Assembly (NCBI RefSeq): GCF_964355755.1
Contig: NC_092671.1
Coordinates: forward strand, 10,675,001-10,739,000
Direction of reading: 5' to 3'
Origin: Antedon mediterranea
Lineage: Eukaryota > Echinodermata > Crinoidea > Comatulida > Antedonidae
Length of the DNA stretch: 64,000 nucleotides
The position numbers and the translations under genes were made by a program. Shown in pieces: positions 22,107-62,667 of this stretch. Each line of letters begins with the position of its first letter. The stretch's first letter is position 1. The notes under the pieces are model-generated. The model saw only the letters and a program-made list of their open reading frames with translations. It ran no database searches and had not been told where the DNA came from.

Positions 22107-25100
22107 ATGGGAGTGAATAGCAGTAGCATTAGTGAACTTAGTACAAATGAAAGTTTAAAAATTCTTGCTGGAACTAAAGTAATCACAGAAGATGACCCAT
22201 TTTGGAACAAACTATTGTCTTTTAAATTTCTGCCACCGCAAACAATTGCTGATGCACGACTTTTAGAAGAAGCTACAAACTCAATTTGTAAACATTTAAG
22301 TAAGTATTTCTGTATTAAAGTTTTATTTATTACTTTGTGTTATATGGATATCATATTTTCCTTTTAGCGTAGGCCATTAATACTAAAATTAAACGCCAAA
22401 ACATTCAAATTATGTGTTTGTTCTTGTCTTCTTTTTCAGCCAACAATAACCCTCACACAGGCAACTTTTGTTCCTTAGTCAAGGTATTCTTAAGGAGAGC
22501 TGATGAACTCAAGACATCAACCCAGTGCAATGAGTAAGAATAAATATATTTAGGCCTATCAACAGTAAACTATTTATATTCCTAGCTACACTCATAGATC
22601 ATTAGATTATAGAATCTCAGATCCCCAGAATCTCAAATCATCAAAGAAAGTTATTGGCTCTAGTCTTTGTGGGTCGTAGTGGGTTGAGACTTCACTTCCA
22701 CCCAGACTAACTCACCACAGCACCCATTCCCCAGGGTATGTATGTATTCTGTATTTATTCTGACTCACCCTTATTGTAACTTCTTCACACCCATACTTCT
22801 TTAGCTGCATCTCTGCTCTTTAAATGTGAACAAAGTGAACAGTGTAATGTAAAATTACTTAATTCATTTATTATCAGTAGAAATTATTTCAGTAATTAGT
22901 TCATTAATAACAATTTCATTTCTTTTTATTATTCTATAGTTATTTGTTTACATGGCAAACTTACAATGCATTATTTATCATTCGCTCTGTTTGTAAATAT
23001 ATGCTGGAGAACATTTCGGAAGGTAGAATAAAACAGCAATTCAGTGTTGCCGTTCCAAAAGAGGGCGCTACAAGACCAAATGGTGAATCACAGTGCCTTC
23101 TTGAGGAATTCCTAAATGCAGTTATCAAAATTCTTATTGAAGTGCCAGTGTTGTAAGTATGATGAGAAACTACATTTAAACACTATTAAATTCTTTGTAT
23201 TTTATGCAATTTAGTTTTAGTCTTTTTCCAATAATAGAAAATAAACCCATCAACACTGTTGGCTATTTTTTGAGAAATGAATTAAGTATTACAGTTTTTT
23301 TACTTTAGTGTGTTAGTCTTTAAATGTTTATATTTATTTTCTGTTGTGTTTTTCTACAGAGATTTCACATACATGCTTCACTTAGAGGGCATAACACTGC
23401 TGTTAGTAATGCTTTCTCTTCAGATGTTCATTCCTCGTGTCTCGCATGAAAGCATCATATACCAGTTACTGATGACATCATCATGGTTAGTATAATACTA
23501 CAGCTGTGTATACACTATCAAGCTTTATGTTTAAAAAAATGTGCCTATATATGGACATGATGATGTCATATCACTACCATATTGAAGCATATCACGTTTT
23601 TTGTCAAACTAGTTTGACAGTGTAGACAGAACACCATAACATTCAGTTCAATCCTTTTCTCTATTAATGATAAAGTAAAACCTATTTATTATATTCTGTT
23701 ATATTTCTATACATAGTTCAAAGGATGCACATATCTTAATCAAGACATTGCTGGATCACTTCATCGAACAAAAATTATGTCCTGACTCTCCATTTGGAAC
23801 TGATCAATCAGGAGGTGGCTTCTTGTCTGGTGTGACCTCTGCTGTTGCAAGTAAGTGAGGCGGACCAACCAAATTTACTTTAAGGGGCTCAAAGCATAAA
23901 TGTAGGCAGTCATGGATATAGTGTGGAATAGATAATATTGTATGAGTGTAGCTGCTTTAAAGTACTGACAGTAGCATATTCTAAGAAGAATACTTACAAG
24001 AGGATTAAGTTTATTGCAATCCCCAAATAGACAGAAGGTTGTAAAACATTTTTAGAATTGTAGTGTAGCTGTAGCTTGGTGATTAACATGCTTGTCTTCC
24101 TATCCTAAAGCCTTGTCTACACTATCAAACTTTATGTGACAAAAAAATGTGATGTGCCCATGTATGGACATGATGATGCCATATCACTACTATTTTTGGC
24201 ATATCACTACCATATTTGGTCACATCACATTTTTTTGGTCAAACTAGTTGGATAGTGTAGACAGAGCTTAAATAACAGGGTTCAATCCTGACCTAGTGAC
24301 AGGGTTGTAACTCACACTTTCTAAGCCTCAAATGAGACTTTATAAGCACGATTAATTATTGTTTACTCATCCTGTAAATGGCGTTTCTTCCTGTTGAATG
24401 CTGGGTATTAAAAAACTGCTTGGACATTAGTAATTTATTTATGATGTATTGTTAGTCATAAAATCATCATAATTCCCAGAATGCTAATTTTCTTTTTATA
24501 TCATCTTAGGTGGTTTATGGACAGTGATGACATTAGGTTACGGTGCTCCAGCTGCTCAAGAGGAAAGTAAACCACTATTAGCCAATCAAAGTCTACTTCT
24601 GTTACTAGTATTAGGTAACCATGACGCCCATCATGGCGTTCAGAATCCATATCGTCATGCGTTGTGTACCTTTTCAAATTCACAAGGTAAAGTAAAATGC
24701 ATTGTTACTGTTTTTTTTACTATTTTAATAGTGGAGTTTTTTTAAAACTTGGTTTCCAGTTGGACACATCGTAGTAGACACAACACAAGTGAGTTGACCA
24801 ATCACTAGTGACAGTTCTGGTGATCCATCGTGTCAGGTACTTGTGGTGCACTTATGTCCTTGCATTTCATTCAGATTTATTTCACACAACATTTTGCCAA
24901 CCAGCACTATCAGGAGAGTCTTCTACAGCGATATTCTTTGCTTTTTGACAATCCGCCAAGATAGTGTCCTGTTTTTTCCCCTCGCCAACTGTCTTGCTTG
25001 TTTTATGTCATCTTTTTTGTTTTATTATATTTCTTATCTGGAAAATAAATGAATATGAATAATATAACACAGTAAAGTGAGAATCAATTGTATAAATAAC

Positions 25101-28100
25101 TAAACTAAAACTATATGTCTCATAATAACATTGCATTTTGTTTTCAGATGGTGGAGCAGCCAATAGCCTTACCGGTCATCTTCCACCTTTCAAACTAAAT
25201 TTTTCAAATTTGTATGAGGCTTTTTGTCGTAGATTCGACAGTGATCAAACAACGCTGTTATTTTATCTGTTATTACACCGAAACTCAAACTTTCGACAAT
25301 GTGTGCTGTCAAAAACGAATATTGACAACCTAGTAAGTAAAACTATGGTACCATTTTTTGTTTGAAATTTAATTGTGTTGTGTCATACTGCATAATATAA
25401 TCATCAAGCTCTTACACAGAATATAATAGGAAGGGGGTTCTTATTTTCACCAAAAAGGGGCATACTAGCATAAGTAAAGACTTGGGGACCAAAATCTGTA
25501 GAAAATGCTTTAGGCATAGCCTTGTATGTATTTTGACTGATTAGCCAAATTGCTTTGAGATATGCCAGCCTGTTTGATAGCACTTTCACTACTGGTTTCT
25601 AGATTGAAAAATGGCACTTCAGAAAAACGGCCCTGGATACTGGCTTGATCTGAAATAATGAAATATACCAATGTTTGTTTTCAGGTCCTTCCTCTTTTAA
25701 AAATCTTGTACAATGCACCAGAGAGTAACTCGCATCACATCTACATGGCACTGATTGTTCTTCTTATACTGAGTGAAGATGATGCTTTTAACAAATCAAT
25801 TCACGAAGTTGTAAGTATATTATTTTGGAATCGTTGAATTAATGATCGTGGGTTCCAATCCAATGCTCGTCGCATTGTTTGTATTCTGAGGCAAGATACT
25901 TTACTTATGTTTGCCTCTCTCCACCCAGATGTACAAATGGGTACCTGGTAAGGTCAAGACACAACTTTACGCTGATTACTAGCTGCATTAATAAAATGTA
26001 CAGCCCTTAACATTAGGTGCTGTATAAACTAGGATATTATTATTATATCAAGTTTGGTAACAGGTGTCTGCAGAAGCAGAAGACAGATCCAACGTTAGGG
26101 GGACTTTCAGCCAAGGCCTGCTACCCCGCCCCTAAATGTTGGTAAATACAATGCAAATGATGGAACAGTAGGTTATGTTTAACACTTAGTTCTACCTATT
26201 TTTAAGCCATCCACTCCCTATATTTACAAATCCTGGATGTGCCTCTGAATTTCAGTTTCTCATTTGTCATTAATTTATTAAAAACAGTTTCTTTTAACAT
26301 TTACATTTAGTGTTTTTATTATTTCTTAACTTATTATTTAACTGTTGTTATTTAATTTGAAATAATATGAATATTCATGAGTCATCAGGTTATCTTTGCA
26401 ATTTGGCTGGTAGTGTAAACAGCATAATGAATATTTTGTTTTGCAGTCTGTGAAGACAGTGCCATGGTACACAGAGCGAGCAATATCAGAGACAACCCTT
26501 GGTGGCCTTATAGTATTAGTAGTCATACGCACCATACAATATAATATGACTAGAATGAGAGTAAGTATTCTAATAATATGGTGTACGCAGTTGGACACCT
26601 ATTAAGGGACCTTTGGGACACAACAAAGTGTCCCCTTAATAGAGGTGTCCCCTGAATATAGTTGGCCGTAGTGTTACATACATTACTCCTTGTAACAGGA
26701 AAGTATCTATCACCTTACTAGGGTGACTCAATGTATAGCTTCTACTGTATGTGATCATATAACCAAGTTGAAATAATAATAAGCAAAACTCTTTGAAATG
26801 TACTCACACGCACATTAAAAAAATACTTGTTTTTGTTTATTTTCAGGACAAGTACTTGCATACAAATTGCCTGGCTGCATTGGCCAACATGTCCTCACAG
26901 TTTCATTCCCTACATCCTTATGTTACTCAGAGAATTGTCAGGTATGGTAACGGGAGACCACCTTGTTAGCTCTCGGCTCTTTTGGTCTACTTTTTAATTC
27001 TATTAATATTCATTAAAGTTTTTAAAAATTGTTTGTGAAGTATGATAAATAAAGAGGTTAAAATATTGCAATTGTATTGTATTGTATTGTAATCATTTTA
27101 ATATAATATGGTTGAGTAAGATTAAATTATTAAATAAGCTTATTTTGTATATACTACAGTTTGTTTGAGTTACTTAGCAAGAAACACGGCAAAATCATAG
27201 AACAGCTTTCAAATGGTTCGTCCACTGTGGCTACTAGCCACATGGACGAGCAAGACTATGTAAGTTATGAATTTTATGAGCATTATTAATAATATGAGCA
27301 GTTACATTAGTTATTAACATTGTGCAGCTGCTATGTCTACACTATCCAACTAGTTTGACAAAAAAAGTGTGATGTGCTCAAATATGGTAGTTATATGCCC
27401 AAATATGGTAGTGATATGCCCAAATATGGTAGTGATATGACATCATCATCACATAAAGTTTGATAGTGTAGACAGAGTTTTAGCTGTTAAATCATTATAA
27501 TTATTGCAATTACACAATATTAATTAATTTTTTCTTTTTTTTCTAGATGGCAGATCTAGCAGTTTTAGAAGAAGTATTGCGAATGGTGTTGGAGATTATC
27601 AATTCTTGCCTGACAAACACCATTCACCACAACCCTAACTTAGTATACACACTTCTCTACAAGAAACATTTATTTATGAGCTTTAAAACTAATTCTAAAT
27701 TTCAGGACATTATACAAAATATTGACACGGTAAGTGCTATTGTTGCAAATCAATATTTATTCATGTTTTTACTGGACTTAATGTTTGAAGAGCTTAACTT
27801 TAGCTCTGTCTACACTATCAAACTTAAATGTGATGTGCCCATATATGGACAAGATGATGTCATATCATTACCATGTTTGAGCATAGCAATACCATACTTG
27901 AGCATATCACTACCATGTTTGGGCACATCACACTTTACTTTAAAAGTTTCTATGCAAGTTTTTGTCCAGAATTAATTAAGCTCTACATAGGCTCATCCAG
28001 TTATATTGGTTACTTTATTGTTATACAGGTTATATATATAGACTACAGCTTAATTGAATTGTACTTGAAACAAACATTATGTTGATATAAATATATGTGG

Positions 28101-29081
28101 TGTACCACAAACCTGATATCAACAACAAACACTACTACTAGCATAACCAATAACTTTAAGGTTAACACCTATTTAACCCACCTTTTAAACCTAAGCTAAA
28201 TGATGTAAACACAATTCGTAATGAACACACCCCACCACACAAACCAAAACTAATATTTAAAAAAAAATATACAATCATTACTCCCTGACCTAATTAAAAG
28301 CAATCTATATTCTGATACTAAAAAAAACAAAATTACCAAATAATGATTATGAAGATTAGAAAACATAGTAAACAAATTTGCAATTACTGAAACGAGTAGA
28401 TGTCTTAATAGGGTTGTTTGTCATTTCAGGTGCTGTCATATTTCTCAGCTCGTTTAGACCAGCAATCAGACGGCAAAAACATGTCTGTTGATGAGGTATT
28501 GGATATCATAAGACAAGGCATGATGCTTTGGAATAAAGAAAGTTTAAGGGTGAGTTAGTACATACAAGAATAAGAAGCACACAGCACGGTATTTTAATTG
28601 GTCAGATGTTTGCCCAGCTCTGCCATAATTGTACTGTCATTTATCTTTACTTTTCTCCTTTCATATACTTTATATTTTTTATTAATAACCATTCAAATGC
28701 CTTGTGTTTCACTGGTGGCCTTAGTTTAAGTGACATTTTGTCCTATAAAGGCATCCTTCCATGTTATACTATTTCATTTTCATTTTGATCAACTTGTTTT
28801 ATTTTGTATATTATGGAAATTAAGTGAGTAGAGTAGAAGCGACTGTACTTTATATTAAGCATGGTTTTTAGTTAAGTGACAATTAACACAGATTTCTGAA
28901 TTTACAATTATCAAATATTTATGTTCCCTTAAAGAAATTTCCAGATTTGAAGTTCAAATATGTAGAAGAGGAGGAACCGGAGGAATTTTTCCTGCCTTAT
29001 GTGTGGTCGTTGGTGTATCATTCCTCCAACTTGTATTGGGATGCCGATCGTATTGAGCTGTTCAACCTTAATTCACAGTGA
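22107..29081 (+). CDS. DYM: dymeclin, complete, 14 coding exons
   Basis: Dymeclin is a peripheral Golgi-associated protein needed for Golgi organisation and secretion of extracellular matrix; loss in human causes Dyggve-Melchior-Clausen dysplasia. Exons: 22107-22299, 22440-22533, 22940-23152, 23360-23485, 23717-23850, 24510-24686, 25148-25332, 25685-25810, 26447-26560, 26847-26941, 27160-27259, 27547-27729, 28430-28549, 28935-29081 (TGA). Phases are consistent and give 668 aa, against 669 in human. The start MGVNSSSIS keeps the Gly2 and Ser-rich context for N-myristoylation. Family blocks include [75 protein letters not shown] and [13 protein letters not shown]. It is built of hydrophobic helices without a clear signal peptide. 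Introns carry four MITE copies and two SINEs. Confidence 0.95.
23502..23632 (+). mobile_element. MITE family A copy 4
   Basis: The left arm AGCTGTGTATACACTATCAA and right arm TTTGACAGTGTAGACAGA are diverged TIRs. The interior contains ATATGGACATGATGATGTCA. It starts just after the donor of DYM exon 23360-23485. Confidence 0.8.
24060..24425 (+). mobile_element. tRNA-derived SINE split by a MITE
   Basis: The left part carries an A-box-like TAGCTTGGTGATTAACATGC and CTTGTCTTCC. After the inserted MITE (24109-24268) comes the B box GGGTTCAATCC and a body with GTGACAGGGTTGTAACTCAC and TTCCTGTTGAATGCTGGGTA. Removing the MITE and one copy of its TAA duplication gives an ordinary A-to-B box spacing, which supports the reading. 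Confidence 0.7.
24109..24268 (+). mobile_element. MITE family A copy 5, nested in a SINE
   Basis: About 160 bp with TIRs AGCCTTGTCTACACTATCAA and its right-end complement, flanked by TAA on both sides (24106-24108, 24269-24271). The interior has the full set of family words, so this is one of the least damaged copies. Confidence 0.9.
25845..26050 (+). mobile_element. SINE body with tRNA B box and ATT-rich tail
   Basis: A B-box-like GTGGGTTCCAATCC is followed by GAGGCAAGATACTTTACTTA, CCACCCAGATGTACAAATGG and GTACCTGG, then GTGCTGTATAAACTAGGATA and an ATTATTATTAT tail. This layout is typical of tRNA-derived SINEs of marine invertebrates. The 5' A box is not clear. It lies in the DYM intron after 25810. 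Confidence 0.65.
26590..26655. mobile_element. short hairpin element
   Basis: GACACCTATTAAGGGAC at 26593-26609 is mirrored by GTCCCCTTAATAGAGGTGTC at 26629-26648, an inverted repeat with a roughly 20-bp loop. This resembles a very small foldback or MITE remnant in a DYM intron. Confidence 0.6.
27326..27478 (-). mobile_element. MITE family A copy 6, reverse orientation
   Basis: It reads in the opposite orientation to the copies at 12-24 kb: TAGTTTGACAAAAAAAGTGT comes first, then repeated CAAATATGGTAGT.ATATG units, then GTTTGATAGTGTAGACAGAG at the right. DYM intron. Confidence 0.85.
27802..27942 (+). mobile_element. MITE family A copy 7, right end degenerate
   Basis: The left TIR AGCTCTGTCTACACTATCAA is followed by the family interior, with an extra ACCATAC.TGAGCATA repeat. 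The right TIR is lost after CACATCACACTTTA. It lies about 70 bp inside the intron after DYM exon 27547-27729, and the exon frame runs on into it without a stop. Confidence 0.8.
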
Positions 29082-31754: not shown

Positions 31755-31933
31755 AGCTTGGTTCCCACTTGAACGTAGCGCAAGGACGTAAACGCAACGC
31801 AAGCGTTTTAACCAATGACAAGCGAAGATATAGGCAGTTAGCAATCACAAGCAAATAAGCCATCGCTTGTGATTGGTCAATTCATTTGCGTTGCGTTACG
31901 TCCTTGCGTTGTGTCGCTAGTGGGAACCACGCT
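31755..31933. mobile_element. foldback MITE family B, copy 1
   Basis: The arms AGCTTGGTTCCCACTTGAAC and the right GTCGCTAGTGGGAACCACGCT are inverted copies. Inner arms CGCAAGGACGTAAACGCAACG and CGTTGCGTTACGTCCTTGCG pair as well. The core has CCAAT/ATTGG words (ACCAATGACAAGCG, GTGATTGGTCAATT). TAA flanks both ends (31752-31754, 31934-31936), the same target type as MITE family A. Confidence 0.85.
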
Positions 31934-33634
31934 TAAGGGATGCGTAGGTCCTACAAAAAAAACTATTGTTTAATAAGACAAATGTAGGTCTACACTTATT
32001 ATAGAGTTGGCTCCTGTATATTACATAGAAATTATGAACGTATAAATAGTCATTGAATTCTATAATTAAAAATTAGCGAACCTATTACTAATGCATCATT
32101 AAGGTTTATTAAATAATTTAATCAGACATCAATTTTATGTTGACGACATGGAGAAATAATTGTCTGCCATATCCGATAATAATTAAAAGAAAGGCGCGTC
32201 AAGTATAGAGAAATATACTACACTGTAGTCAACAAGTCCTTATTAAAAATCCTTAATCGGCCTAGTCAGTTGTCTATCGGTCGCTGCTGAACAACTGACT
32301 GATTCTGAGACTCCGATAGCCAAATCATTCGGATTTCCACATAATTCGCGGATTCTATAGGCCTGTTAGTCATTCGTATTTTGGGTCTTCCCCTAAATGC
32401 TAATTCGCTTGAGTAATAGAAATTCATGTTCACGATCTTTGTATACGTGTGTTAGTTACAAAGTACATGGACAACTAATTATTTATCATGCAAAGTATTA
32501 CTACTCTCACAAAACCATAATTTGTCGTCGTCTTTCCAGTAATATAAGCCATTTTCAATATGTAATGTAAAGAAAATAATTTTCATTAGTCCTTCACCCG
32601 ATGTTTAGAGTCACGCCACATCCGTTTCTATGCTCCGATCATATGTTAAGTTGCATTAAATAATCTTTTCAATTAAAATGTGTATGTCATGATTAATGTT
32701 TCATTTTACCTTCTTCATCTAAATGAAAATATAAAAAAGAAATAAAGCGCACAAAACAATTTCCACGCGTTTGAACACCAATAGTACACGCAGTTCAACG
32801 TGTAGAAGTACGGTAACCGAACGCAAGCGATGGGAAACGAGGCGCCCGATGGACTAGGAACCGTCCTTGAGTTAAGACTAAACGCGCTTACAACTTGACT
32901 CATTTATTAACCATTAACAGTAAGCAACTAGCTGTTGTTATTATTTCTAATTCCAACCAACTTGAAGTTCTTTGTTAGTGGCGCCGAAGCAAAGTTTTTA
33001 TGTGGGCCTGCTGCGCCCATAGTGCACGTCCACTGAACCGGAACTTACAGTCCACCAGTACGTACGATTCAGTTTTGTTGTATAAGCTTATGCCTAGCCT
33101 ACAGGGTATATCAATAACCTATAAAATGTAAGTTTACGAACAGGAGTTATGTTGATTAGCTTGTTCGTGTGGAATTAAAAGAATCATAATTTTATTTTTG
33201 AAAGGAAATAAAAATTCATCCATAAATTGGTGTTGGTCAATATTGCCAGAGGGTCATTAATAAACTCAAAGCGCTTTTTCTTCAGGACAGATTACTGATT
33301 ATTCATTAATAACAAACAACACGATAAAGCTACAGCACTAATTATAAAAACATGTTTCTACAAATATTAATTAGGTCAAGGAACCATGATTAGGTTTAAT
33401 ATTAACAACCCGAAGGCTAATTTCCAATATCGATTATTTCATTACTATTACTATACTTGCATTACATCAGTGCGTCAATTGGACGTCGTCTACAGAATGA
33501 TCTGTACATAAAGTTTTACCAATTTGAGTTGACTTCAGAAATGTAGGCCTACTTTTTCTGTAATTAAATTCTGCGAACTGACAGGGGTGTTTTGTTTTGG
33601 CACTGTTTAATTCAAAAGAAAAAAACTCGTCATA

Positions 33635-33799
33635 ACCAACCTAGGATGCTCCCAATAGGACGCACCATAAGTACGTAAGCCGCAACACAAGAGAATTGGC
33701 CAATCACAAGCTCGAGATTTCGATTAACCCATCGCTTTCGATTGGTCAATTCGCTTGCGTTTGCGACTTACTTCCTTACGTTGCGTCCTAGTTGGTTCC
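33635..33799. mobile_element. foldback MITE family B, copy 2
   Basis: Arms AGGACGC.CCATAAGTACGTAAG and CTTCCTTACGTTGCGTCCTA, with core GGCCAATCACAAGC and CGATTGGTCAATTCGC, match copy 1. The ends are less certain because copy 3 follows directly. Confidence 0.75.
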
Positions 33800-33970
33800 C
33801 ACTACTGGAGATGCAAGTACGTAGACGTAATTTGAACGCAAGCGAGTTGATTCATTCAAGCAACCTGTTCGAATAATTGTTCGAATAATCCATCGCGTGT
33901 GATTGGTCAAATCACTTACGACTACGTACCGTCGCGTTACGTACTTGTGTTGCGTCTCTACAGAGAACCA
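33793..33970. mobile_element. foldback MITE family B, copy 3
   Basis: GGTTCCCACTACTGGAGATG at the left mirrors CTCTACAGAGAACCA at the right. Inner GTACGTAGACGTAA and GACTACGTACCGTCGCGTTA arms and a GTGATTGGTCAAATCAC core match the family. Confidence 0.75.
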
Positions 33971-35675: not shown

Positions 35676-35694
35676 CGCGCCTAATTGTCTAGAC
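35676..35694 (+). promoter_or_regulatory. palindromic Smad-binding element with adjacent GC box
   Basis: GTCTAGAC at 35687-35694 is the full palindromic Smad MH1 site. CGCGCC at 35676-35681 stands exactly five bases before it, giving a GC-box/N5/GTCT layout like BMP-response elements. It lies about 630 bp upstream of the inhibitory-Smad ATG. Vertebrate Smad7 promoters are known to carry GTCTAGAC and to be induced by their own pathway. The site is visible; its use here is inferred. Confidence 0.5.
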
Positions 35695-39300: not shown

Positions 39301-42300
39301 CAGTTCTTCTTCCTCACAACTCTTGACATGTTTGTCGTCGATGCTGTTAAGGCTTACAATCTGTATAGTACCATCCTCTTGAGGTTTTAAATTAGCTCAT
39401 TTCTAGCTGTTGTAGCATGTCCAATCTTGCTCTGTGACAAACCGTAAACATGGAAAATGCTAGTTTCTGTGTAGTGGCCATCTAGCAAAGTGTAAACATA
39501 GTAATAAATAAATTAATATATATTAATAGTGACAGATGGACTATTGTACAGTACAGTTAGGTAACTTTGTTTTTGCAATTAAATGCAATCTAGAATTTGT
39601 TAACTTTTTTAGAATACTAGTGAATCTTTTCTCTATCTGGATCTCAGTACAGTATAATACTCTGTAGATGCAACAAAAAAGTGTTAAGTCTGCTAAGTTA
39701 CTAACTGTAACTATGACAGCTAAAAGATAGCTTAGACTACAGTACCTGGGATGGATCCAGCTTTGAAGAAAAAGGGGCACAGTTCGCGACAAAGGCATGA
39801 TTAAAGGTACCTTGGAATGATGTAATTCTTATTTTGTATGGGGGTGCGGTGCGCCATTGGACAACTGTATAGTAGGCTGGATGATTGGAATGAATTTTAA
39901 CAGACTACTGTACTATTGTATTGTACACCAGTACTACATGTATACAGTACAGTTTATGTATTTCCAAACTACATTACAGCATGCATAAATTGTGGTTTCT
40001 AGACCTCTTTGTACCTGTTGGTTTTGAAAACCTACAGTAAATACATTATTCAAATGTTGACTCAGCAATCAAATGTTACTACCTATGTCAAAATCTGATA
40101 TATTGTTTATAGCATGCAATGTTTATGGTGTTCTTAAAGGCACGTTGTTTGAGCAGGATCACCTCTTGGCATTTTGCCTAGGCACACATTTGCGGTGATA
40201 CGATAGTGTGGTCTTTTTGAGCTGTAATTAGGTACAAGTCCATGACTATAAAGATGAACTGATGGTATTTATCTAAACAGAGGTTTTCAGGTCTTGGAAA
40301 CATCAATAAGGTTTTCAAATATACACAGAGATGTAGATATCGGACATGGTTTAAAATAGTTTACCACCAAGTGAAAGGGCAATAAAACACAGTACCTGTA
40401 CACTGCTGCTGTACTGTATCAGTATTCTGCATTCTGATGATGTTGAAAACATACATTTTGTTCAATTTTGATTATTCTTGAAATGTACTGTAATATTGTA
40501 CTTTTTAATCTAATTAAGTAATTTATTTTAAATAGTAATTTGGCGGAATTTAGGTGGTGGTATTATAGTACAGTACTGTCCTATATTGTTCAATGGTTTT
40601 ACTAAAATCTTGTTTCTGAATTTAGTCCTAATTTAGGGGGTGGGGTGGGATTAACCTACTGTAGAGCATGGGATTAAACTTGGTCATGCAGTTAGGCTTA
40701 CAATAATAATTTTGCATCTACTGTACCAATTCATTATTTGTTAAATTTAATCAAGCAACTCTATTTCTAAAAGCAGTGATATTGTTTTTGTAATTTTACT
40801 ATTGTAGAAATAATGATGTTATTGCGCACAGAAGTATAATAGTTTTGTGTTGGGTGTACCATTACAGTACTTCATTGTTAGCAAATTATGTGTTTCCTAT
40901 GTGTAAATCAGCACTGTAATCTAGTATAAGTGAAAAAAAACTACTTTTTGTGTGCCTTGCCACTTTTCGTTTAAGTGCTCCACTGGCGGTGCGTAAACAG
41001 GCCTGTTTGTGAAGTAGCAATGTGGATGGATTTGCCCTAGGCAAGTAAGGTTAGCCTTGTATTGAGTGTAGAATTTCCCAGTGTTGGAATGCAGGCCAGT
41101 CACTTGGGCACCAGGGAATATCCCAGGCTACAAAACTGTCATAAAAGTTACATTCTATCTGCATCACAGGTTGTCTTGAGCCTTGCCTGTTTTCCTGATA
41201 TTCAGTAATGAATAACCAAAACCTATGAAATCATTAAACCAACTATGAAATTGTTGACATATGCAATTAGATTATCAATGTAAGTACAGTAACGTATCGT
41301 TAGAAAACTAAAAGCCATACATATTACAACTTACAAGAAAATAATAATTTAGGTACCTACCAGTAAACTACAGTACATTTTATTTCTTACTATTTTAGTA
41401 AACAAATTTTTTATATTAAATTTTACATCAGATCATAAACAAAAATGTCAAGGTCTGTCAAAGATTTCATCTGCCTTTATTATCTGTCCGCCTAACTGTA
41501 CATACTTCATGATTATTGCTATGCAATTAGAGAAATTACTAAACATTGGAAAGAACTATACGCTAGTTCTGCCCGTTGGCTTTTGTTCTGATAATGAAGC
41601 TTGAACGTTTTGGAGAAGGTCACGCATTCGAAAACCATAATATCCGTCCTTACTCATTTAATATTCATAACTGTGCAACATCGCCTACCACTTGTATAGA
41701 TCGTTTATCATTTTTCTGAATATTTTAATGATTTTTTGACATTATTTTTACATACACAGTTGGCATGAAAAACTCCATTGGTACTGTACAATTATATTTC
41801 TTATGGTATACTGTAGTGTAGGCTGTACAATACAATCAATTTAAAAAATGTTAATTATCAGTCAGCGTAGCAACGTGTATCGAAGGACATATTACTTGTA
41901 AAAACGGACATGATCAGAATAAGAATAATTCTTTAAATAATTATTTAAAATTATTTTTTTCAAATTGTATCTGCTCTAGGGACAGTGTAAGGCGAATTTT
42001 TCATAGTGTCATATTGGCGTACAAACAATTTTAATCATATACTTGCCTTAATACTTTAAAGGCGGCATACTTTGTGTGGCCTTGATTTAAATTGGTATGG
42101 GGAGTTTAATGTTTATATTATACAATGATTTCGGCTGGGGAAGAATATTTCTGCATTAAAACTATAAGCAGTGGAATTTTTTCAATAAATACATATTTAT
42201 ACTGTATATCCTATCCACATTCTTCAGCACAATTTTGTATTTGCCATTCCACTGCATTTGTACTTGTATGATTACTGTATGCACCATGGATAAATAAGGC

Positions 42301-45300
42301 ATACTTACTGTACATACAGTAGTACTAAATAGTAAGGGAGTTTATTGCATACATTTTACAACATTGTCATATATACAGTACAGTATTATATACATGTCAT
42401 TATTACAGTATGGAACAGTAGGATAAATAATCAACATATTAATTATTTATTTGAACATCCCTCCTATTATACAATATTCCTAACTAACAACAGTAACAGT
42501 ACTGTATTTTGTAGCCACGGATAGTTCCTGCAAGCCAGCCAGTAGTGTTCATCTTAAGTAGTACCCTACTAAAAATCTTCAATTCATTCTTGTCCCCAGT
42601 AAAACTGTAGCCTACAGTAAACCTTACCGTGACATATCCAGCAATTAAATGCAACAGCTTTTAAAGTCAATATTTTTTTTCAGTTCTTACTATTCTTGGC
42701 TGTAGCCTATATTCTATAGACTGCTGTAGCCTTTATTCTTTGCATGATTCCAGTGTATTAATATGCATCCTTGAGCCAGTTTTTCTGGCGCCTACTTCTC
42801 TACAATGACACTCCCTTCAACCTTGATTTTGTACACTGTAAAACTAGCTGTTAAAATACAAGAAATCTTAAATGACCTCTTAGCTTAAGCTCTGTAATTA
42901 ATCATCAATCACCATTTTCTGTAATAAATGATAAATTTGTATTGAAACATGTAATGACAACAGATTTTGCTTTTTAAAATCTATCCAGTAGATACCATAT
43001 ACAGTATTACAGTATATTTGTGTATTTCAAGAAAACCTTATCGTAAATAATTAGTAAAATGTTTATTCAACATCAATAATTAAGAGATTTTTTTAAAATA
43101 CATTTGTGCATCTTTTCTAACAAATAATTTATTAAACTCAATCTAAAAACAAAACTGCTATAAAGCTAATTATTTACAGCTCATTAATTTACTATAGTAG
43201 CAATATTTCATCTGCTTAATATTATAGTATTGTACGCTGGATAATACGGTGACATTGTGTCTAATATCCATTGTTGGGTTAAATGATAATTATTGGTTAT
43301 TTAATGTAATGAAAAACCTTTAAGGGTATTCAACCCATACAGGTGTAACCAGCGAAAGAAATTAAACAAGAAATGGAGCTTAGCCGATGTTGTGTTTGCA
43401 TGTAGCTTCATTACACACAATCAATCGATCCGACATTAAATAGATCAATGAAAATGGTTTATTCAATGCAATGTGTACACTCACAAGTACAGTAAATACA
43501 TAATAGGAGATTTACATCGGTTGATATTTAAACAAATTGAATGAACTTGATACTTCAATCATAAAATAATAATTTCATTTGTTGATTTTAATTTATACAT
43601 TTATTAATCAATTTATACTAGCATTATCACATGTTAAGAGGTTGACATTAGTATAATATTTAAACAATTGTATTCAACCATAAAAATGTTTTAATATTGT
43701 TTATTTAATTACTCAGCTCTGGTATATACAAAAAAAAGTGTTCAGTTCAGTAAAAATTAATAAAAATATAGAATTTACAGATTTGTTATTAGTTAATGTA
43801 AATGTATTGAAAATATTTCTGATACAATAAACATGTAAAATATATTGATGTTTTATAGTAATTTAGCAGAATATTATTTATTAGCAGCTGTTAGAAATGT
43901 TTGTTATTTCTTTGATAATTCATGATAATGTACAGTATCACCCAGGTATCATCTGAAAATTTAATGTTATTGTTAGTATTTATAAATTCTGCAGCAAACA
44001 TGGTAATTAAGTCCATGTGTAATGTAATTCAGTATTGCATATAAAATACAGAATTGAGAGTTGTAATGCAGAAATGTTATATATTGTATATCAATTGAGT
44101 CACAGACATTTCATTCTCTTGTCTAAATGCTACATATTATCAACTGAGTTCATGTACAGGACAGTAAATGGCAATGTCCGTATATCGACATACGGTTCTA
44201 TATTTTCACAAAGAGATGGGGAAAAAATAAACCATGAATTTTATTTGAGACTCTTTTGTCTGTATTTTAGGATAGCAATGATAAGATTTTTTAAATATGT
44301 TACTGTATACTCATCTTCATACTATCTAAATATAATTGTTACATGCGTGAACTGTAAAATAAATGTTATTAATAATGTCATTGTATATATATATTTTTAT
44401 ATTTATATATACTGTATTTCATTAAACATGTTTTTTTCTTTTAATGTAGAATCTGCGGCACCTCCACCATACAGTGAAGTGGCGTGGGACTGGAAGGCAT
44501 TACAGCACACATCAAGTACGTATCATAAAATCATAAAATAATATATAATATACAGTAATCACAAAAATGATCGAGTTACTTATTAAGCTCAGCAATTTCT
44601 TCATTATCACCATGTTGTTAGGCATGATATACTGTACCCAGTTTTAAACATTTTTTTGCAAAAATACTGGTACTGTTCATTTCAACAAATTTACAGTGCT
44701 TTGTTGCTTAATTAAAATTGTTTCAATATAAAATTTAATGACAAAAAGAGAGATCGACGTTTCAGTACAATCATAGAACCATTTTCAAGATCAAGTGAAT
44801 ACAAAACAATAATAATTATGTGCACTAAGCACCAAAATTGTGTTCTATTTTATGCCTGGTAGGTCCTGGTTGAATATCAACTCCACATACATACTGTACC
44901 ACTTCCTGTTTACAATCAATTACATTATGTCTCTTTTCTAATTATCCATTTACAATATTTAGAATTGAGTACTGTATTAGTAAATTGCTTTTAAGCTTTT
45001 ATACACTATCAAACTATAGAAGTTTGTAAAGTGTAATGTGCCCAAATATGGTAGTTATATGCTTAAATATGGTTGTGATATGCTTAAATATGGTAGTGAT
45101 ATGACATCATCATGTCCATATATGGGCACATCACATTTATTTGTTACATAACGTTTGATAGTGTAGACAGACCTTTACCTTGTAATTATTATAAATGATG
45201 AGGATGTGGGACATGATAGTAAGTTATGAAATATTTGTGTTATTTCAGAATTACTGCCAATTAGAACAAGCAGTACAGAAACAGGAAACACACCCACCTC

Positions 45301-48300
45301 AAGGCTCAACCATTGGCCCCCTTCAGGTAAATTGAAACTTTGATTATTTTATTCATATTTTGTTAGAAAGATGTTTTGATGAACATATTGATTTGATTTA
45401 TTTCGATGCCATACATAATAAAACAGAAAAACAAACAAAAAACGCAATCATTAGTACCCAGGGATACACCTAGCTCTCTAAATCTCCGAAGGGATTTACA
45501 TCCTGAGGGGTCTTTTCAAACGTAAAAACAATTTACGCCTTCAGACAAAATAAAATTGATAAAGTTTGGCTGCAATGAGATCTTTATAAACCCTGTTTTG
45601 TAAGAAAAACGTTCTTCTGATGTTTTTCAATAAAAATATGCCCTATGTACAGTAGTTTCCTTGAATTTAGGGGTGGGTTTACACAGAGGGGGAATTGTAA
45701 ATCATACTATGGTAGTGAAAGTGACAAGTTAAGATAACACAGAAGGAGTATAAAACCATTGTTTATTTATGCCACATTCTTCTGGCAATCAAGGCTTTAC
45801 TTAATGCAAGGCTTTACTTAATGGAAAGCAACTTTGAATTCTTGTTAACTTCAAAAGGAGGTACAAGATAGGTTTGTACATACATTGGTCAAACAAATTT
45901 GGTAGTAAAAAAAAAATGAGACTAATAATATTATGTGATTTTGTCACACGCCTACTGTTGTACTGTGCACCACACCTTATCGCTCACTACTGTATACAGC
46001 ATGTGCAGTACTGTACACAATGCCCCACCCACCCCTTTCTATTGTAAACCCAGTATTATATTAGAATTGTTCTTATCCAGTATTGTATTTAACAAAGCAA
46101 TTTGACCCTTTTGTATTAAGAATGATGAGTTGACCTTTGAACTGAGGAGAATGATTTTAAAATTATGTATTAATAATGAAAGGTGGTGGTTTTTAAAATG
46201 AGATTGATCTGGTAAATTTATTAATTTTTTCCAAAGTAAATCCTTTTCAATGTGTTTTTTTTCTGGTTTACAGAATACAGTTAGTGTAAATATAAACAAA
46301 AAAATTGTTCAAATTAATTTCTTCTACAATAAAATACCTACTGTACTAGGTGGTCTCAATTGTAGTTGATAATTTTAAAATTAAATTAAAAATTGAATGA
46401 AATGTGTTTGTACTTTAACATTTGTACTTTAACATTTGTACAGTAATTTTATCTAAAAAATGTATCTATTGGTAGTGAAGAAATTGAATATTAAAAGTGT
46501 AGTTAAGCGAAACAGGATGACGAGGTAGACGACCTACTCTTGGCCAGTTCACCTTCAACCTATTAAAACAGTTTAGGTAGGATAACTGTCGCCTGCTATT
46601 CACATCAAAAAACAGAAAAGCAGTTGTTTTTGGTTCTGTCTATTTCAATCAAACTTCCTATTATGCTTAAAGAAAAAGGCCATTCTATGGTGGTTTTGCA
46701 TCATTGCCTTATTTTCAAGTTGTGTTATAGTTAATTTTTTCCTTTAGTAGAATTTTTGTGGCAAGTTTTATAAAGGTTTTTGCATGGTGTGGTCCTCAAG
46801 AACTTGCTGATTTGATCAGCTAAGAAATTATCATAACTTTGGCCGTGGGGGAAATAAAGCGACAGAGAAACACAGCAGGAGATTGAGAGATGAGGAAATT
46901 AAATTTAGTCAAGAAGATTTCTTATTGAACCAAATATCTAGAAGTAACATTTGATAGGCTAAGAAAGAACTTAAAAACACAAATATTTATTAATAAAAAA
47001 TAATGTTTGATATAGAATATTGTGGAAATTAATTTATCCTTACTGAGTGTAGTCTGTGTGGATTGTAAGTTTGATTTGACAAATGATATCTTCAACTGTG
47101 CAAATCGCCATAGTGTTTTAACAAGCCTGAATTTTATGATAATATCCTGAAAAGTCATTGACATATTAATATGAAAGGAAAAATACAATATCATCTTCTA
47201 TAATAGATATATTACTCAGTTTAAGGGTATAAATAAAATGAATGACTGTTAGCTGTGACTTTGATTTGGTGACGAACGTATGGAGAAAAACAATTAATTA
47301 AGCAAAATAGAGGAAATGTTGAAGGCTGTTAACCCCATTTGGGTCCTGGTTCAAGTTTTACTCTTCACTAATTTGTCAAGAATAATATGTACTTGTAAAT
47401 GTTCTAAAAACCGATTCAAAATTAGGATATGATTAAGCAATAAGGGCTCCATGATGAATTAAGCCTAAATTTAGAAAAGTATAATTGATAACCAAGACAA
47501 GAAAGGAAATTAGAGAGGAGTCGGTGTGAATAAACGAAAGAAGAGGAGGAGTGATTGCCTGTCAACGTTTGAGTATTCCAATACCCTAAAACTAATCCAA
47601 GGCTCCTGCTTGCCTATTTAGCTAATGACTGTCCACTCTTAAAGCATCCATTTGTCAAGCAAGAATGCTATCATTTGAGTGAAAATACAGTACACAGTGG
47701 GCTGGTTGTGCAAGTTGTGATAAACGCTTCTGGCATATAGTGAACTTCTTAGTTCTTGTAATAATTACCACAATTTCATGACAGTCTGGCAACCTTTTGT
47801 ACACTGCATTTTGTTTGAATACAATGTTTTCATACAGGTCAAAAAGAAAGATTTCTTGTACAGTTAATAATGTACTGTCAATATACAAATTGAGATTGGA
47901 GTGTGTACATTAAAATCTACAGTAAAATGATAAAAGTTGAAGATTTAACAATTGGACAGGGTGCAATGCAGCTGCTTAAAGAATAGATTTGCTCCCCACA
48001 CACTCTACTTTAATGAGTTACTCAGTTATATACACTGTCAGGCTTTATTATCATCATTTTTCCAATTTTGGTGGCCTAAATTGCCTTTTTTATATTACAA
48101 GTTAGTTTCTTTCATTCAATAGGGGCCAACAACTGTTATATCCAAAGGCAGAGTTTCATGTTTAAACCTTTGGGACTTTCTACTTAATGGTGGTGAGGTT
48201 TGCTCCATAAATTGATGGAGAATAGTTAAGAGGGAGGTGGCAGGTGTTCAGATACTTCAAGAGGAACAGGTGTGATTATGAATGATGATGCCAAGGCCCT

Positions 48301-51300
48301 CTCCTCCCTAGTCTGGCTGGCTGGCTGGCCTCTTCCTTCAGACTGGCTTCCTATTTATACATTCTTGAGAACATTAGCTGGCTTATTTATTCATCTATGT
48401 TTTAAATAAAACACTTCTAAAATTGCCTTGAACATTTTTAACAAAATTGGTCTGAATTATTGAAATGATCCCATATTAGTATTACTACCAGTGCCGGCGG
48501 ATGTTGCAGTAAGTGGGTATAATGCATTACCAAAAATATGAACAATACTACACAGAAATGTGATGAACTTGATCACACATGCCTATATAAAATGGTTGTA
48601 TTGTACCGCATTTTGCCAATTAACAATCTGAAAAAAATGCCAATTTCTACAGTATGCAAGAAATGAACAAAATTAATAAAAAGAATTACTTTAGTGGAAA
48701 ACTTAATTTTGTTTGGGTACTTTTATTAAGGTTTTTTTGATACATTATGATTGCCATGAACACAAACCATATTCCTTTGTTAGTTTTATTCAAAAGGTAT
48801 TTAGTAGTGAGTACAATACTACAAAGTGATAGACAGGGCGATAGACCTTAGCTACTGTGTCTTAACAATGCATTAAGTAGCAAAACAATAGAAACATAGA
48901 CTGTAGGTCTGTCTCCAAAACTATTGAGCTTAGTGTGTGAGATTTTCAATACAGTTTCTTTTCTTGGTACTAGATACCACTTGAGCTGTTGTTTTGTAAT
49001 GGGTCTTTTCTTAGCCCGCATTTTTGTTGGATTATCTAGATTCACTGGAGCCATTTACTAGTTAAGTATACAATAAACACTGAAATGTTAGGCCCTTACT
49101 AGTTTAGGCCAACTATTGATACCAGCTCCTTCAAGCACTTGTGCTGTCTATTTGACGTCATTCCAAACGCATAGCCACATTTTTACAGGGCCCAGAAATT
49201 TTGTATACTAAGGCCATCATAAACAACAGTTTTTTCTGATTGTCCTTTTTTTTATCGTTCCTTTATAGATATTATCTTTGTCCAATAACAATCATTTACT
49301 ATTTAAAAAAATGTGTATACAGTACCGCAAAAAAATAATAAATAAATAAAAATCAAAGAACTCAATTTATCATAAAAATTGTATCATTTTTGGATCCAAA
49401 GATATATTTCATAGTTTCAAATATTTTGATCCTGATAGTATATACAATTACAAATAATGGCGTTGACGTTAATCTCAGTTGGTTTGCTAATAAAAAATTG
49501 GTTGGTGACATACCATGTTGTATGATTTAGGGCTGGGAATTAATTTATATAAAGTCAAGGTCTTTATTGACGAGAGTTTATTAAAATTGGTCCACGTTCG
49601 TTAAAGGGTCTTGTGTTTTTCTAAGAAGCAAGATGCGTAAAAAACTATAAAGAAAGAAAGAGCAGAAATGGGAAATGACTTCACAGGCGGTCTTTGATAA
49701 TTACAAATGATTGTAGGTGGTGGGCCTTAGTTGTACGTAGCCCTGGACCAAGGCGGACTTGCGTGCTACCAGTTCTTGATCAGACTGGCAGCAGGGAGTG
49801 GAGACATTAGCTCCTGGAATCAATTATCCACCAGGCCTCCATTGGGCTGTGAAAAGGAGCCTAGCTGGAGAAAAGCAGTAAGATTGGGTTGGGATGTAAT
49901 GCAAAAGAACATATCCCTACTGAATACTTTTAGGGGTCAATATTTAACTACAATCTATCTAACCCTTCGTGCATTCTAGTATTCATACTACAGCAGTTCT
50001 GATCTTCCTGTAATGATAATCCATACAAAAAATAAATAAATGTAAAGTCCTACTATTGAAGCTTACTGTATACATATTAATTTATTTAAAGTGGTTTAGT
50101 CATTAATTCTGTAGAAGCTCTGTCTCCATCAGTCTACAGTTGGAGGTCACTTCGGCACCACATGCCAATACCTACATGACTTGCTATATGAGATTGCAAT
50201 TATTCATCGTCTAATTATTATTATTTGTTTTATAATTAGAAAACTTATCCCATCCTTAAATATTAAAAAAACATTTATATGGAAATTCATTTGTATTTGT
50301 TATAATAGTTACATAATGTAATATAATAATTGTGGGTGAATTCTCAACACATTTTATAAATATTTTGAAAGTGTATTACTTAACCTGCCATCAGACCAAT
50401 ACAGTACCAATTCTGGACACCCTTGAGCTGTGTTTTTAAATTATAATGGAAAAATGTATTTGAGACCTTTTGGACCGTAAGAAAAGTCTGGTTTTGGGAG
50501 AGTTTCTGGTTTTGGGAGTGTGCGGTATTAATCAATAGAATATTGTGAACAAATATGCCCAGTGAGTCCTGTCTATCTCTCCGCAGCAATAGTCTCGTGT
50601 CAAAATAGAATTCACTTTTTATTTTGATATGGCGCCAATTCTATAGAAATCGTAACATACAATGCATTCTTCTATTGAAAATGGTAATCTAGAGATGGGT
50701 AATAAAATGCTGACATATTTTGTGATGCAAAGTTAAACCTCTTCTCTCCCTTTGAATTGTAGCAAGGTATGAATACAGTTATTGTTATTTGAACCCACTT
50801 TGGTGGATAAAATGCTTAGCTTTTATTCTCTATATCACAATAGCTAAACAATGAACAGGAAGCAATATATCTTTAGGTTTATTTTTATTATTAATACCTT
50901 GTGAATAGATTGCCTATTTAACTGCTATTAATGACAAAATTGTATTTGTTTTATCTCAAAATGACGTACTTAAATGTTGCGATACTTATTAATAGCTTAT
51001 GATGTAGCTACATTTATAGTACGGTACTTGGTGAATTAGAATTTAGGTTTCATAGCAGTATAAGTGATTATTAAGAGGGTCCTATTATAAAGCTCTGTCT
51101 AGTGTGATGTGCCCAAATATGGTAGTGATATGACATCATCATGTCCATATATTGGCACATCAAGTTTTTGTCACATAAAGTTTGATAGTGTAGACAGAGC
51201 TTAAGACGGTATGGTACATTAACAGTAACATTTGTCCAATGCAACTTCCACTTAATAGTAAATTTAACCCCATCGTAATATGCATCGCAATAGCGGCTTG

Positions 51301-53483
51301 TAAATATGCTACAATTTCAGTTCAAATATTGGGTTCTTTATTGAAGTGAGCAAAGTTTAAGTATTATATATATATAATGTAGCGTTATGTTTGAACAGTA
51401 GAATATAGTGGATGTTTGTTTAAACCATCACCCCTCTATATGTGTAATCTACGCTTGTTCTTGAAAGTAAATAAAGCACTTGACTATCCAATACCGTAGT
51501 CCACTATTCAATCAAAATGAGTTATTATGAAATTCTTAACAAAACCTGATACTATTAAATGTATAGTCAGCAAAAATAGTACTTTTTAAATTTGGTAAAA
51601 CATATTGGCCCAAGAAAATAGGTGGGGGGGGGGGAGAGGTGCAACACTGGGCCAACCTCTGTGTCACTGGATCTACCACAATTGAGATATCATGGTGGTA
51701 CAATACATTATGACTACCATGTTACTGTATTGTAAGTAGTGAGATACAGTAGGGGTATACAGTAGTACAGTAGTATGAAATTCCATCTAAGTTCTCTGTT
51801 ATTTGCAATATACAAATATGTTTTAAATTGTTGTGGTGGCATTTGTAGGTTGTTATATACCACCTGTGTTACATTTAATGCTAAATATAATCAGACCTTC
51901 TACTCTTTAGTTGCACAGTGCAAAGGAATATACTGTATATACTGGTGCCCTAAGTTAGTTTCCAAGCATATCTATACCACTCTGTACTTTTTGGTATTTC
52001 AAACTTTTTTTAACCGAAAATGCCAACATTCCAGTTTAGGTTAGATGTCAACATGTTAAAGTCTTTAGATCTGCTTATACTTTATTCATAGGGTGCGTTG
52101 GGGTGTGGGTGTGGGGGGGGGGGGGGGAGGAAGGGAACCAATAAGTGTCTGTGAAAAAGATTTAAAGTTCCATACATTAAGCAATGTTAGTAATACCTAC
52201 TTTGCTTTAATCATTGGGTTAAAAATATATTTGGCTGTCATGACCTTTTCTTTAGCTCGAAAATTAACAATTTTCAATGTATGTCATTCATTTGTTTGTT
52301 GGTAATGTTAGTGTAATAAATCCGATGATAACCTACAGAACACTGTAGACTTTTTTATTTATGTATACAGTACTGTATATGCCTTTAAATTATGTCATCA
52401 TATTATAAGGTTTTTGATCTTGATAAATGATATTCTACTTGCCAAAACAAAATTAAATCAACTGTTTTAGGCTGGCGGCCTTGACTTGTGATAGGAACAT
52501 GGGAGCCAAAAGAATATGCTAATTATTATATCCTTCTAAGCTACTTAAAATATTGAGGTTTTGGGATTTCATTTCTATTTTTATATAATGGATTTATACA
52601 TTAAATTTTGCTATCAAATATACTGTTTTGAATTGGTAATAAAAAATAGTGTACTTCTTTTAAATTGAAGTCTCTGTTGGTTTCATTTAATGTTTAAGAA
52701 AATAAATGTTTAATATTCTGTATGTATACAAAATATACATTTTTATCCATGGTGAATTATTTGCAGGGAAATATGAATTTGTTTAATTTTAAATTTTGTT
52801 TCAATAAAATAATTAAATTAAAAAAACACAATTGTTAATTTGAAAACAACTTGAATTGAAAGGATATTATTTTTGGGTGTTCTCCAATTTTTTGTACAAC
52901 GCGATAAACAAGTTTGATTCTTTGATTTTTTTATATAGACGCATCAGGAGTGGATGGAGAAGCAATGAATCCATGGTGTAGTATTGCCTACTGGGAGAAT
53001 CGTACACGAGTTGGTCGAATGTTTCCTGTGATGTCAGACTTTGTAAATATATTCTATGAGCTACCTCATGGTGACGGGTTTTGTCTCGGTCATCTTCAAA
53101 CGGAATCACGATCAGAAAATGTTATAAGAACAAGGACAAAAATTGGATACGGTTTAGTATTAAGTAAGGAGTTAGACGGTGTATGGATTTATAACAGGAG
53201 TAACTACGCACTTTTTATAAATTCGCCAACGTTAGACGATCCACAATCACGAACGTTAACTGTAGTAAAAGTTTTACCGGGATTCTCAATCAAAGCTTTT
53301 GATTATACATTAGCGGAAATTCTGGAAGTTACACGGAAAGAACCGGATGTTCCAGTTGGTCCTACGGATCCAAACTCTCTTAGAATTAGCTTTGTGAAAG
53401 GTTGGGGAGGACGTTATACAAGACAACTCATAACATCATGTCCGTGTTGGGTTGAAATTATATTAAGCGTACCATCAAGATAG
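36318..53483 (+). CDS. SMAD7: inhibitory Smad (SMAD6/7 type), complete, 4 coding exons
   Basis: An intracellular antagonist of TGF-beta and BMP receptors. Exons: 36318-36759, 44450-44515, 45249-45326, 52939-53483 (TAG); phases join to 376 aa (human SMAD7 426). The start MFRSKRSNYVRRLWRNR matches the vertebrate I-Smad N-terminus. The MH1 domain is divergent and spans roughly residues 45-143, with LKEKQLELLLEAVESKGG, FRWPDL and the zinc-ligand end VCCNPYHLSRL. Residues 152-155 are PPPY, the motif that recruits Smurf-type WW-domain ubiquitin ligases. The MH2 domain runs from about residue 206: WCSIAYWENRTRVGRMF, NGFCLG-like GDGFCLG, VDGVW-like LDGVWIYNRS, FVKGWGG (L3 loop) and CPCWVEIIL. The chain ends ...SVPSR without the SSXS phosphoacceptor of receptor Smads, as expected for an inhibitor. 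It is probably the single ancestor-like gene of SMAD6 and SMAD7. The frame is open for 66 codons upstream of the ATG with no in-frame ATG. Confidence 0.93.
36760..44449 (+). other. SMAD intron 1 (7.7 kb), no gene seen
   Basis: The intron has a GTAAGT donor and an AATGTAG acceptor. It is AT-rich and dense in TACAGTA/TACTGTA words, with no coding frame or transposon that I can support. Occasional less AT-rich blocks, for example 41570-41700, may be regulatory, but nothing specific is recognised. Confidence 0.6.
44994..45174 (-). mobile_element. MITE family A copy 8, reverse orientation
   Basis: AGCTTTTATACACTATCAAA at the left and GTTTGATAGTGTAGACAGACCT at the right are the TIRs, with three CAAATATGGT.GT.ATATG units inside. 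A TTA target duplication is present (44991-44993, 45175-45177). It lies in SMAD intron 2. Confidence 0.9.
45327..52938 (+). other. SMAD intron 3 (7.6 kb), with some GC-richer blocks
   Basis: The intron carries no supported gene. Most is AT-rich with TACAGTA words and G runs (51624-51637, 52115-52128). Distinct, more complex blocks stand out at about 46500-46660, 47500-47660, 48160-48360 (with TAGTCTGGCTGGCTGGCTGG and CAGACTGGC) and 49700-49910 (with CTGGACCAAGGCGGACTTGC and AGACTGGCAGCAGGGAGTGG). These are candidate conserved enhancers. Confidence 0.45.
51091..51201 (-). mobile_element. MITE family A copy 9, internally deleted
   Basis: The left arm is cut short (AGCTCTGTCT then AGTGTGATGTGCCC). 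The right arm AAGTTTGATAGTGTAGACAGAGCT is complete. TAA flanks both ends (51088-51090, 51202-51204). SMAD intron 3. Confidence 0.9.
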
Positions 53484-62660: not shown

Positions 62661-62667
62661 AAATATA

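Follow-up and report, generated by a model that had tools for sequence, protein, structure and literature searches.

Does the close pairing of a dymeclin gene (DYM) with an inhibitory Smad gene (SMAD6/7) in the crinoid Antedon mediterranea go back to the same ancestral arrangement as the human DYM-SMAD7 pair, and what has held the two genes together? We addressed this question in a 64-kb window, bases 10,675,001-10,739,000 of chromosome C2 (40.9 Mb; 11.5% of the genome), set against the animal's own 354.4-Mb genome (eleven contigs between 22 and 41 Mb in size and seven far smaller). From the gene models, their order and linkage, and the motif counts, we infer a homologous arrangement and a feedback function: it is likely that DYM and SMAD6/7 have inherited their adjacency and that SMAD6/7 carries a feedback promoter. 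We are much less sure of the cause of the pair's retention.

The original prediction was borne out, with exact coordinates: the window has a complete dymeclin gene and, about 7 kb further downstream in the same orientation, a complete gene for an inhibitory Smad. DYM occupies 22107-29081 of the plus strand, from the ATG at 22107 to the stop at 29081. According to spliced translation and Pfam comparison, its 14 coding exons (22107-22299, 22440-22533, 22940-23152, 23360-23485, 23717-23850, 24510-24686, 25148-25332, 25685-25810, 26447-26560, 26847-26941, 27160-27259, 27547-27729, 28430-28549 and 28935-29081) encode 668 amino acids, and all internal exon borders are of the AG/GT type. The protein matches the Pfam Dymeclin profile PF09742 at full length (positions 1-673 of 673, 693.1 bits) and the Hid1 profile partially (32.1 bits), identifying the gene as a dymeclin distinct from HID1. 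Spliced translation also yielded a complete SMAD6/7 gene of three exons and 350 amino acids at 36318-53483, again on the plus strand. Exon 1 (36318-36759) contains the start and the MH1 domain (83.6 bits against Pfam), exon 2 (44450-44515) encodes a linker with PPPYS, a PY motif of the kind known as a WW/Smurf ligand, and exon 3 (52939-53483) contributes the MH2 domain (164.2 bits) and the stop. The protein ends in ...ILSVPSR and lacks the C-terminal SXS phosphorylation motif. The 7,236 nt between the DYM stop and the SMAD6/7 ATG fully enclose no stop-to-stop frame of at least 90 amino acids, and an Rfam scan of the window returned no match at gathering level.

We take human DYM and SMAD7 to be direct neighbours at 18q21.1, with SMAD7 downstream of DYM on the same strand and a gap of presumably roughly 90 kb, as compared to 7.2 kb here. 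The predicted match of order and strand with this human arrangement held, on the crinoid side by the spliced models and, for the order of the human blocks, by a figure legend that sets duck scaffolds against human chromosome 18 as ...LIPG-DYM, then SMAD7-CTIF... (PMC5327406). The accessible part of the same paper locates SMAD4 and MYO5B in the region of DYM/SMAD7, and an excerpt on a mouse quantitative trait locus holding Smad2, Smad7 and Smad4 discusses these genes together with DYM and CTIF (PMC3795728). The probability that a given gene falls within 10 kb downstream of another on the same strand by chance is 1e4/354e6 x 1/2, or about 1.4e-5, genome-wide. It rises to about 1.2e-4 if both genes were already fixed to the 40.9-Mb chromosome, and to about 1e-3 after allowing for some ten comparisons. 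Given this low chance, the contact between DYM and SMAD6/7 was therefore most likely inherited. The pair is a further case of a known phenomenon, ancient microsynteny. The Wnt5-7 block, an ancient metazoan example described in the available text of PMC8851819, also places a developmental regulator beside an unrelated gene; blocks of that type carry enhancers inside the neighbour, whereas evidence for such enhancers in DYM was not found here with motifs as proxy. In a literature search, outside which lay most subscription journals, the combination of DYM and SMAD6/7 did not come up for any invertebrate, nor did dymeclin microsynteny, and none of the regulatory-block papers with Smads that it listed mentions dymeclin. 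The papers found on synteny of SMAD7 with DYM do not deal with invertebrates in the text seen, and one on SMAD6/7 synteny that includes amphioxus shows no gene order for these genes in the part available.

The gene had also been proposed to be the true orthologue of SMAD7, or of the SMAD6/7 ancestor. Compared with 24 solved reference sequences, which include no SMAD6 chain, its MH2 domain scored 204.6 bits against the MH2 domain of SMAD7 (7cd1; 89 of 165 aligned residues identical), 87.4 against SMAD2, 83.9 against SMAD4 and 78.2 against SMAD1. A genome-wide MH2 profile search, in which weak matches can be missed, produced ten matches and a single locus of the inhibitory type. The other loci comprise SMAD2/3 at C2:10.07M, which lies some 640 kb upstream on the plus strand (it scored 428 bits against SMAD2 and 355 against SMAD1; its MH1 exon at 10.055M was assigned by position), SMAD4 at C2:19.43M (107 bits for the single exon tested, the remaining exons being assigned by position) and SMAD1/5/8 at C5:29.51-29.53M (430 bits to SMAD1). 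Because it is the sole inhibitory Smad found among the ten MH2 matches, the window gene is, within the reach of this search, most probably a single pro-orthologue of SMAD6 and SMAD7, where human has two genes. The result thus points to the ancestral version of the proposal and lends no support to SMAD7 itself, and the linkage to DYM tells only which human copy retained DYM. SMAD6/7 is predicted to act as the feedback inhibitor of TGF-beta/BMP signalling. The SMAD6/7 protein had no match among plasmids, as expected, and a COX1 search of the genome contigs gave none either. Searching the genome with the Dymeclin profile returned 23 rows, 10 in the window and 13 at C1:1.356-1.363M. We rejected the latter locus as a second dymeclin and regard it as HID1-like: of six exons scanned, Hid1 outscored Dymeclin in four and lay above the cut-off in all six. 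The window DYM is the one dymeclin gene found in the genome.

The same family searches brought up Smad-like sequences elsewhere. A divergent MH2 exon at C1:18083389-18083589 has as its best solved relative Drosophila RE28239p (33.8 bits), which we take to be the Smad-like protein Expansion, followed by SMAD4 (31.6 bits). The genome-wide MH1 search yielded 17 matches, including one on C6 and eleven on C7, and no MH2 match fell on either chromosome. On C7, eleven partial MH1-like matches are packed into 41 kb of the minus strand (C7:2280702-2322141), eight of them having equal scores and one internal TGA; this array may consist of tandem copies of an NFI- or Smad-like exon, or it may be a mobile element that has picked up part of an MH1 domain.

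The wider surroundings of the pair bear on the claim that it forms an ancient microsynteny block. Chromosome C2 carries MYO5, SMAD2/3, DYM, SMAD6/7, PSTPIP and SMAD4, the genes tested having been chosen for closeness to human DYM/SMAD7 or SMAD3/SMAD6, with human places assumed unless a paper is cited. The MYO5 tail lies at C2:0.98M (61.7 bits to myosin-Vb in the solved-structure search; earlier attempts with Pfam in one frame and with a single exon had given nothing). Past the downstream edge of the window, the minus strand of C2:10.7447-10.7487M holds PSTPIP, of which seven exons splice without a stop; its F-BAR domain scored 199 bits to PSTPIP1 and 97 to the next protein, and an SH3-like exon was seen by eye further 3'. 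Relatives of SMAD2/3, SMAD4, MYO5 and PSTPIP presumably reside on human 18q21 and 15q21-24; in particular, we take PSTPIP2 to be at 18q21 and PSTPIP1 at 15q24, the chromosomes carrying SMAD7 and SMAD6. The linkage is thus probably old, because SMAD2/3, SMAD4, MYO5 and PSTPIP share C2 and chance is an unlikely cause. We read these data as a conserved linkage group that has been much shuffled internally, in which DYM-SMAD6/7 is the one contact with human order and strand and the tightest surviving one. This old linkage group would have given rise to human 18q21 and, by the vertebrate genome duplications, would also be represented at 15q21-24, with human chromosome 18 keeping DYM together with SMAD7.

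The DNA in front of SMAD6/7 contains candidate sites for a feedback response to Smads, namely a palindromic Smad word and a GC-type word near the gene start. The upstream region at 32601-36400 (no strand assigned) has a GC content of 0.375 and an observed/expected CpG ratio of 1.18; of 16 control pieces, each 10 kb long, one has a higher ratio (1.32). Within it, on the plus strand, GCGCC-N5-GTCTAGAC (35677-35694) combines the GC-type with the palindromic Smad-binding word, and GTCTAGAC-N9-CACGTGAC (35687-35711) joins the palindrome to an E-box. In the resulting block, GCGCC-N5-GTCTAGAC-N9-CACGTGAC, the palindrome begins 631 nt 5' of the SMAD6/7 ATG. The copy at 35687 is the only GTCTAGAC in the window (shuffled expectation 0.32); control DNA contained 3 in 60 kb of flanks and 0 in 100 kb elsewhere. 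GCGCC-N5-GTCT likewise occurs once in the window, with 0.04 expected and presence in 3 of 100 shuffles, and GCGCC-N5-GTCTAGAC has 3 copies in 354 Mb as compared to 0.64 expected. With up to two mismatches, GGCGCC-N5-GTCTG was found 9 times in the window (1.2 expected). The pattern GTCTAGACN{0,20}CACGTGAC has a single match in the genome, at the SMAD6/7 promoter; a Markov model expects 0.48 genome-wide and puts the chance of a match within 1 kb upstream of a single specified ATG at 1.3e-6, and the backwards control also matched once in the genome. Upstream of SMAD6/7 there are also direct repeats, 41-54 nt long and diverged, that contain CGTTGCGTTACGT-like and GATTGGTCAA words (31850-31942 and 33719-33983).

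In the human SMAD7 promoter the GTGTCTAGACGG and CACGTGACGAGG words are, as we assume for their spacing, directly adjacent. Probes for electrophoretic mobility shift assays made from that promoter contain both, according to the accessible part of PMC5918965, so that the human proximal promoter shares the GTCTAGAC and CACGTGAC words with the one described here. The two differ in that the crinoid promoter has a 9-nt spacing and an extra GCGCC word at N5, and in the extension of the word, which is TGACGAG in human (within a probe termed AP-1 in the text seen of that paper) and TGACCAA here. As far as the available texts go, Smad MH1 domains, including that of a Trichoplax Smad4, have been shown on GGCGC with GTCTAGAC as positive control (PMC5727232), mixed motifs for BMP Smads have been listed (PMC12259022), and GTCTAGAC serves as a reporter motif (PMC10113255). 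Our literature search, with most subscription journals outside it, found nothing on TFE3 and an E-box at the SMAD7 promoter. We consider it an evenly balanced possibility that the GTCTAGAC...CACGTGAC core was inherited and, together with the upstream DYM, has formed one conserved regulatory unit since the ancestor shared with vertebrates, predating the split of SMAD6 and SMAD7.

A further signal extends over the whole SMAD6/7 locus. GGCGCC occurs ten times in the window, compared to 1.18 by shuffling, with none of 100 shuffles reaching ten, and all copies fall at 32841-63354: three between DYM and SMAD6/7 (32841, 32980 and 34564; region 32841-34569), two in SMAD6/7 introns (42787 and 50631; region 42787-50636) and five 3' of the gene (59200, 61056, 61394, 62145 and 63349; region 59200-63354). 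Control DNA totalling 160 kb, taken from this genome, contained five, three in ten spread pieces and two in six flanking pieces. The fairer figure is that for the whole window, 10 versus 2.0 expected (P 4.6e-5), because the P of 2.5e-7 for the cluster itself is not a fair test, its boundary having been set after the sites were seen. Along the window, all 10 GGCGCC sites fall in the 34.9 kb that follow DYM and 0 in the preceding 29.1 kb, and the 160-kb control has 5; this amounts to a 9-fold rise from the end of DYM. The corresponding counts for GCGCGC are 5, 2 and 7 (3-fold), and the other six of eight GC-only palindromes were low, with no clear rise after DYM. The spread of GGCGCC fits BMP-type Smad input over the SMAD6/7 locus.

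Several points weigh against inherited adjacency coupled to a feedback promoter. Descent, as opposed to two independent juxtapositions, is judged from two lineages, human and the present genome, and the wider DYM neighbourhood is not conserved. The single C18orf32 match (32 bits, 27 of 103 positions) and the single Ribosomal_L22 locus (40 and 33 bits), taken for RPL17 although this family also includes a mitochondrial protein, both lie on C11, whereas C18orf32 and RPL17 are presumably neighbours of DYM in human. AAGAB gave one match, below the cut-off and on C11, and 0 of 8 matches to MIF4G, the domain of CTIF, fell on C2, these being located on C3, C7, C9 and C11. On the side of the promoter, GTCTAGAC alone is ordinary (at least one copy in 28 of 100 window shuffles), and the two further copies of GCGCC-N5-GTCTAGAC, at C2:19.19M and C7:19.17M, have no gene recognisable by eye within 9 kb around each; CACGTG is absent within 45 nt on either side of both. 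We settled on the motif pair and the range of gaps with this promoter and the human probes already in view, and since the pattern GTCTAGACN{0,20}CACGTGAC was set after reading both promoters, its single match is not a blind test. The strict fly-type BMP activating element GRCGNC-N5-GTCT has no match in the window, the site here (CGCGCC-N5-GTCT) deviating from it at the first base. On the 3' side of DYM, CGCGCC and CGGCGC are likewise raised 3- to 5-fold, perhaps partly by overlap, and E2F sites share GGCGCC as their core. As an observation in its own right, the matches to C18orf32 and RPL17 and the weak one to AAGAB are gathered on C11, and we take all three genes to lie near human DYM or SMAD genes, as if human 18q21/15q22 mixed two chromosomes of this animal. 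Matches of the general SKI/SKOR type number one on C3 and two on C11.

The absence of a third lineage from the comparison, together with the placement of matches for human DYM neighbours on another chromosome, lends some room to the reading that independent rearrangements juxtaposed DYM and SMAD6/7 in human and in this lineage. We regard such a coincidence as very improbable, its chance being about 1e-4 even given a shared chromosome and before counting comparisons, and four further genes sharing the linkage. If the pair is inherited, it may simply never have been broken, gene order having changed slowly in both lineages. This account, which is compatible with descent, is quite possible, although we hold it with somewhat less than even confidence: the 40.9-Mb chromosome has kept MYO5, SMAD2/3, DYM, SMAD6/7, PSTPIP and SMAD4 with neighbours up to 10 Mb apart, which is what slow drift would predict, yet to our knowledge DYM and SMAD6/7 alone of this set are adjacent in both genomes. 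Drift also gives a developmental regulator no special status, and one pair cannot decide the matter.

The remaining account builds on the suggestion in the original prediction that Smad enhancers within or near DYM introns perhaps kept the pair together. In such a genomic regulatory block, DYM would host or block SMAD6/7 enhancers in its introns and selection would forbid separation. Pairs of bystander and target genes are a described cause of ancient microsynteny in the part of PMC8851819 that is available. Deep conservation of Smad6 regulatory DNA does exist, because Frith and Ni report, in the accessible text, a chimaera segment near smad6 that matches octopus DNA (PMC10735318); this bilaterian-conserved segment is likewise regulatory DNA at an inhibitory Smad, compared here by description only. 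However, the 6,975-nt DYM gene contains neither GTCTAGAC nor GGCGCC, which is weak evidence since only 0.22 GGCGCC are expected there. DYM introns are short and hold at least three copies of a mobile-element-like repeat, the signals that we found sit 3' of DYM, and a search on smad7 and a DYM intron found no paper, most subscription journals being outside it. Enhancers within DYM introns thus gained no support, and we consider this account unlikely; DYM is more likely to be a passive neighbour than to host enhancers.

Other features of the region concern the genes and repeats around the pair. A short element whose ends are complementary, TCTACACTATC...GATAGTGTAGA, recurs in DYM introns at 23495-23630, 24102-24265, 27322-27476 and 27833-27888, and similar copies are visible by eye in PSTPIP introns; the element looks like a small non-autonomous DNA transposon. 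Upstream of DYM, alpha-mannosidase (GH38) and acyl-CoA dehydrogenase exons differ from the human DYM neighbours. The latter comprise a C-terminal exon at 135-437 followed by a middle-domain exon at 4247-4519 (plus strand; 28.5 bits at a cut-off of 33.3), and probably belong to two tandem acyl-CoA dehydrogenase genes. Three open frames 3' of SMAD6/7 within the window had no Pfam match above the cut-off. Upstream of the window, at C2:10662200-10663500, we noticed a death-domain exon (43 bits) with nearby frames that by eye look cysteine-rich and EGF-like, the one scanned having no Pfam match; this is perhaps an innate immunity receptor.

In the reading that we prefer, inherited adjacency with a feedback promoter, the pair would consist of two separately working genes, DYM being a Golgi housekeeping gene and SMAD6/7 a putative feedback inhibitor of TGF-beta/BMP signalling. 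SMAD6/7 would most likely be induced by activated Smads via its own promoter, through the GC word, the palindromic Smad word and the E-box, and may receive further Smad input via the GGCGCC sites spread from the 3' side of DYM to 10 kb past SMAD6/7. A raised level of the inhibitory Smad should then damp the pathway, while DYM would be transcribed towards the Smad gene from 14 kb upstream. The adjacency may have lasted either because breaks between the genes would hit upstream control DNA of the Smad or because breaks are rare.

The pair is thus a case for separating enhancer hosting from slow drift as causes of ancient gene order, and the regulatory letters visible here, with motifs as a proxy of low power, lie between and beyond the two genes and none inside the neighbour DYM. 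Both the neighbourhood and the switch may be ancient. If the promoter core and the adjacency to DYM were both inherited, the promoter logic of human SMAD7 would be testable in an invertebrate, and the negative feedback of TGF-beta/BMP signalling would rank among the oldest regulatory wirings still readable in sequence.

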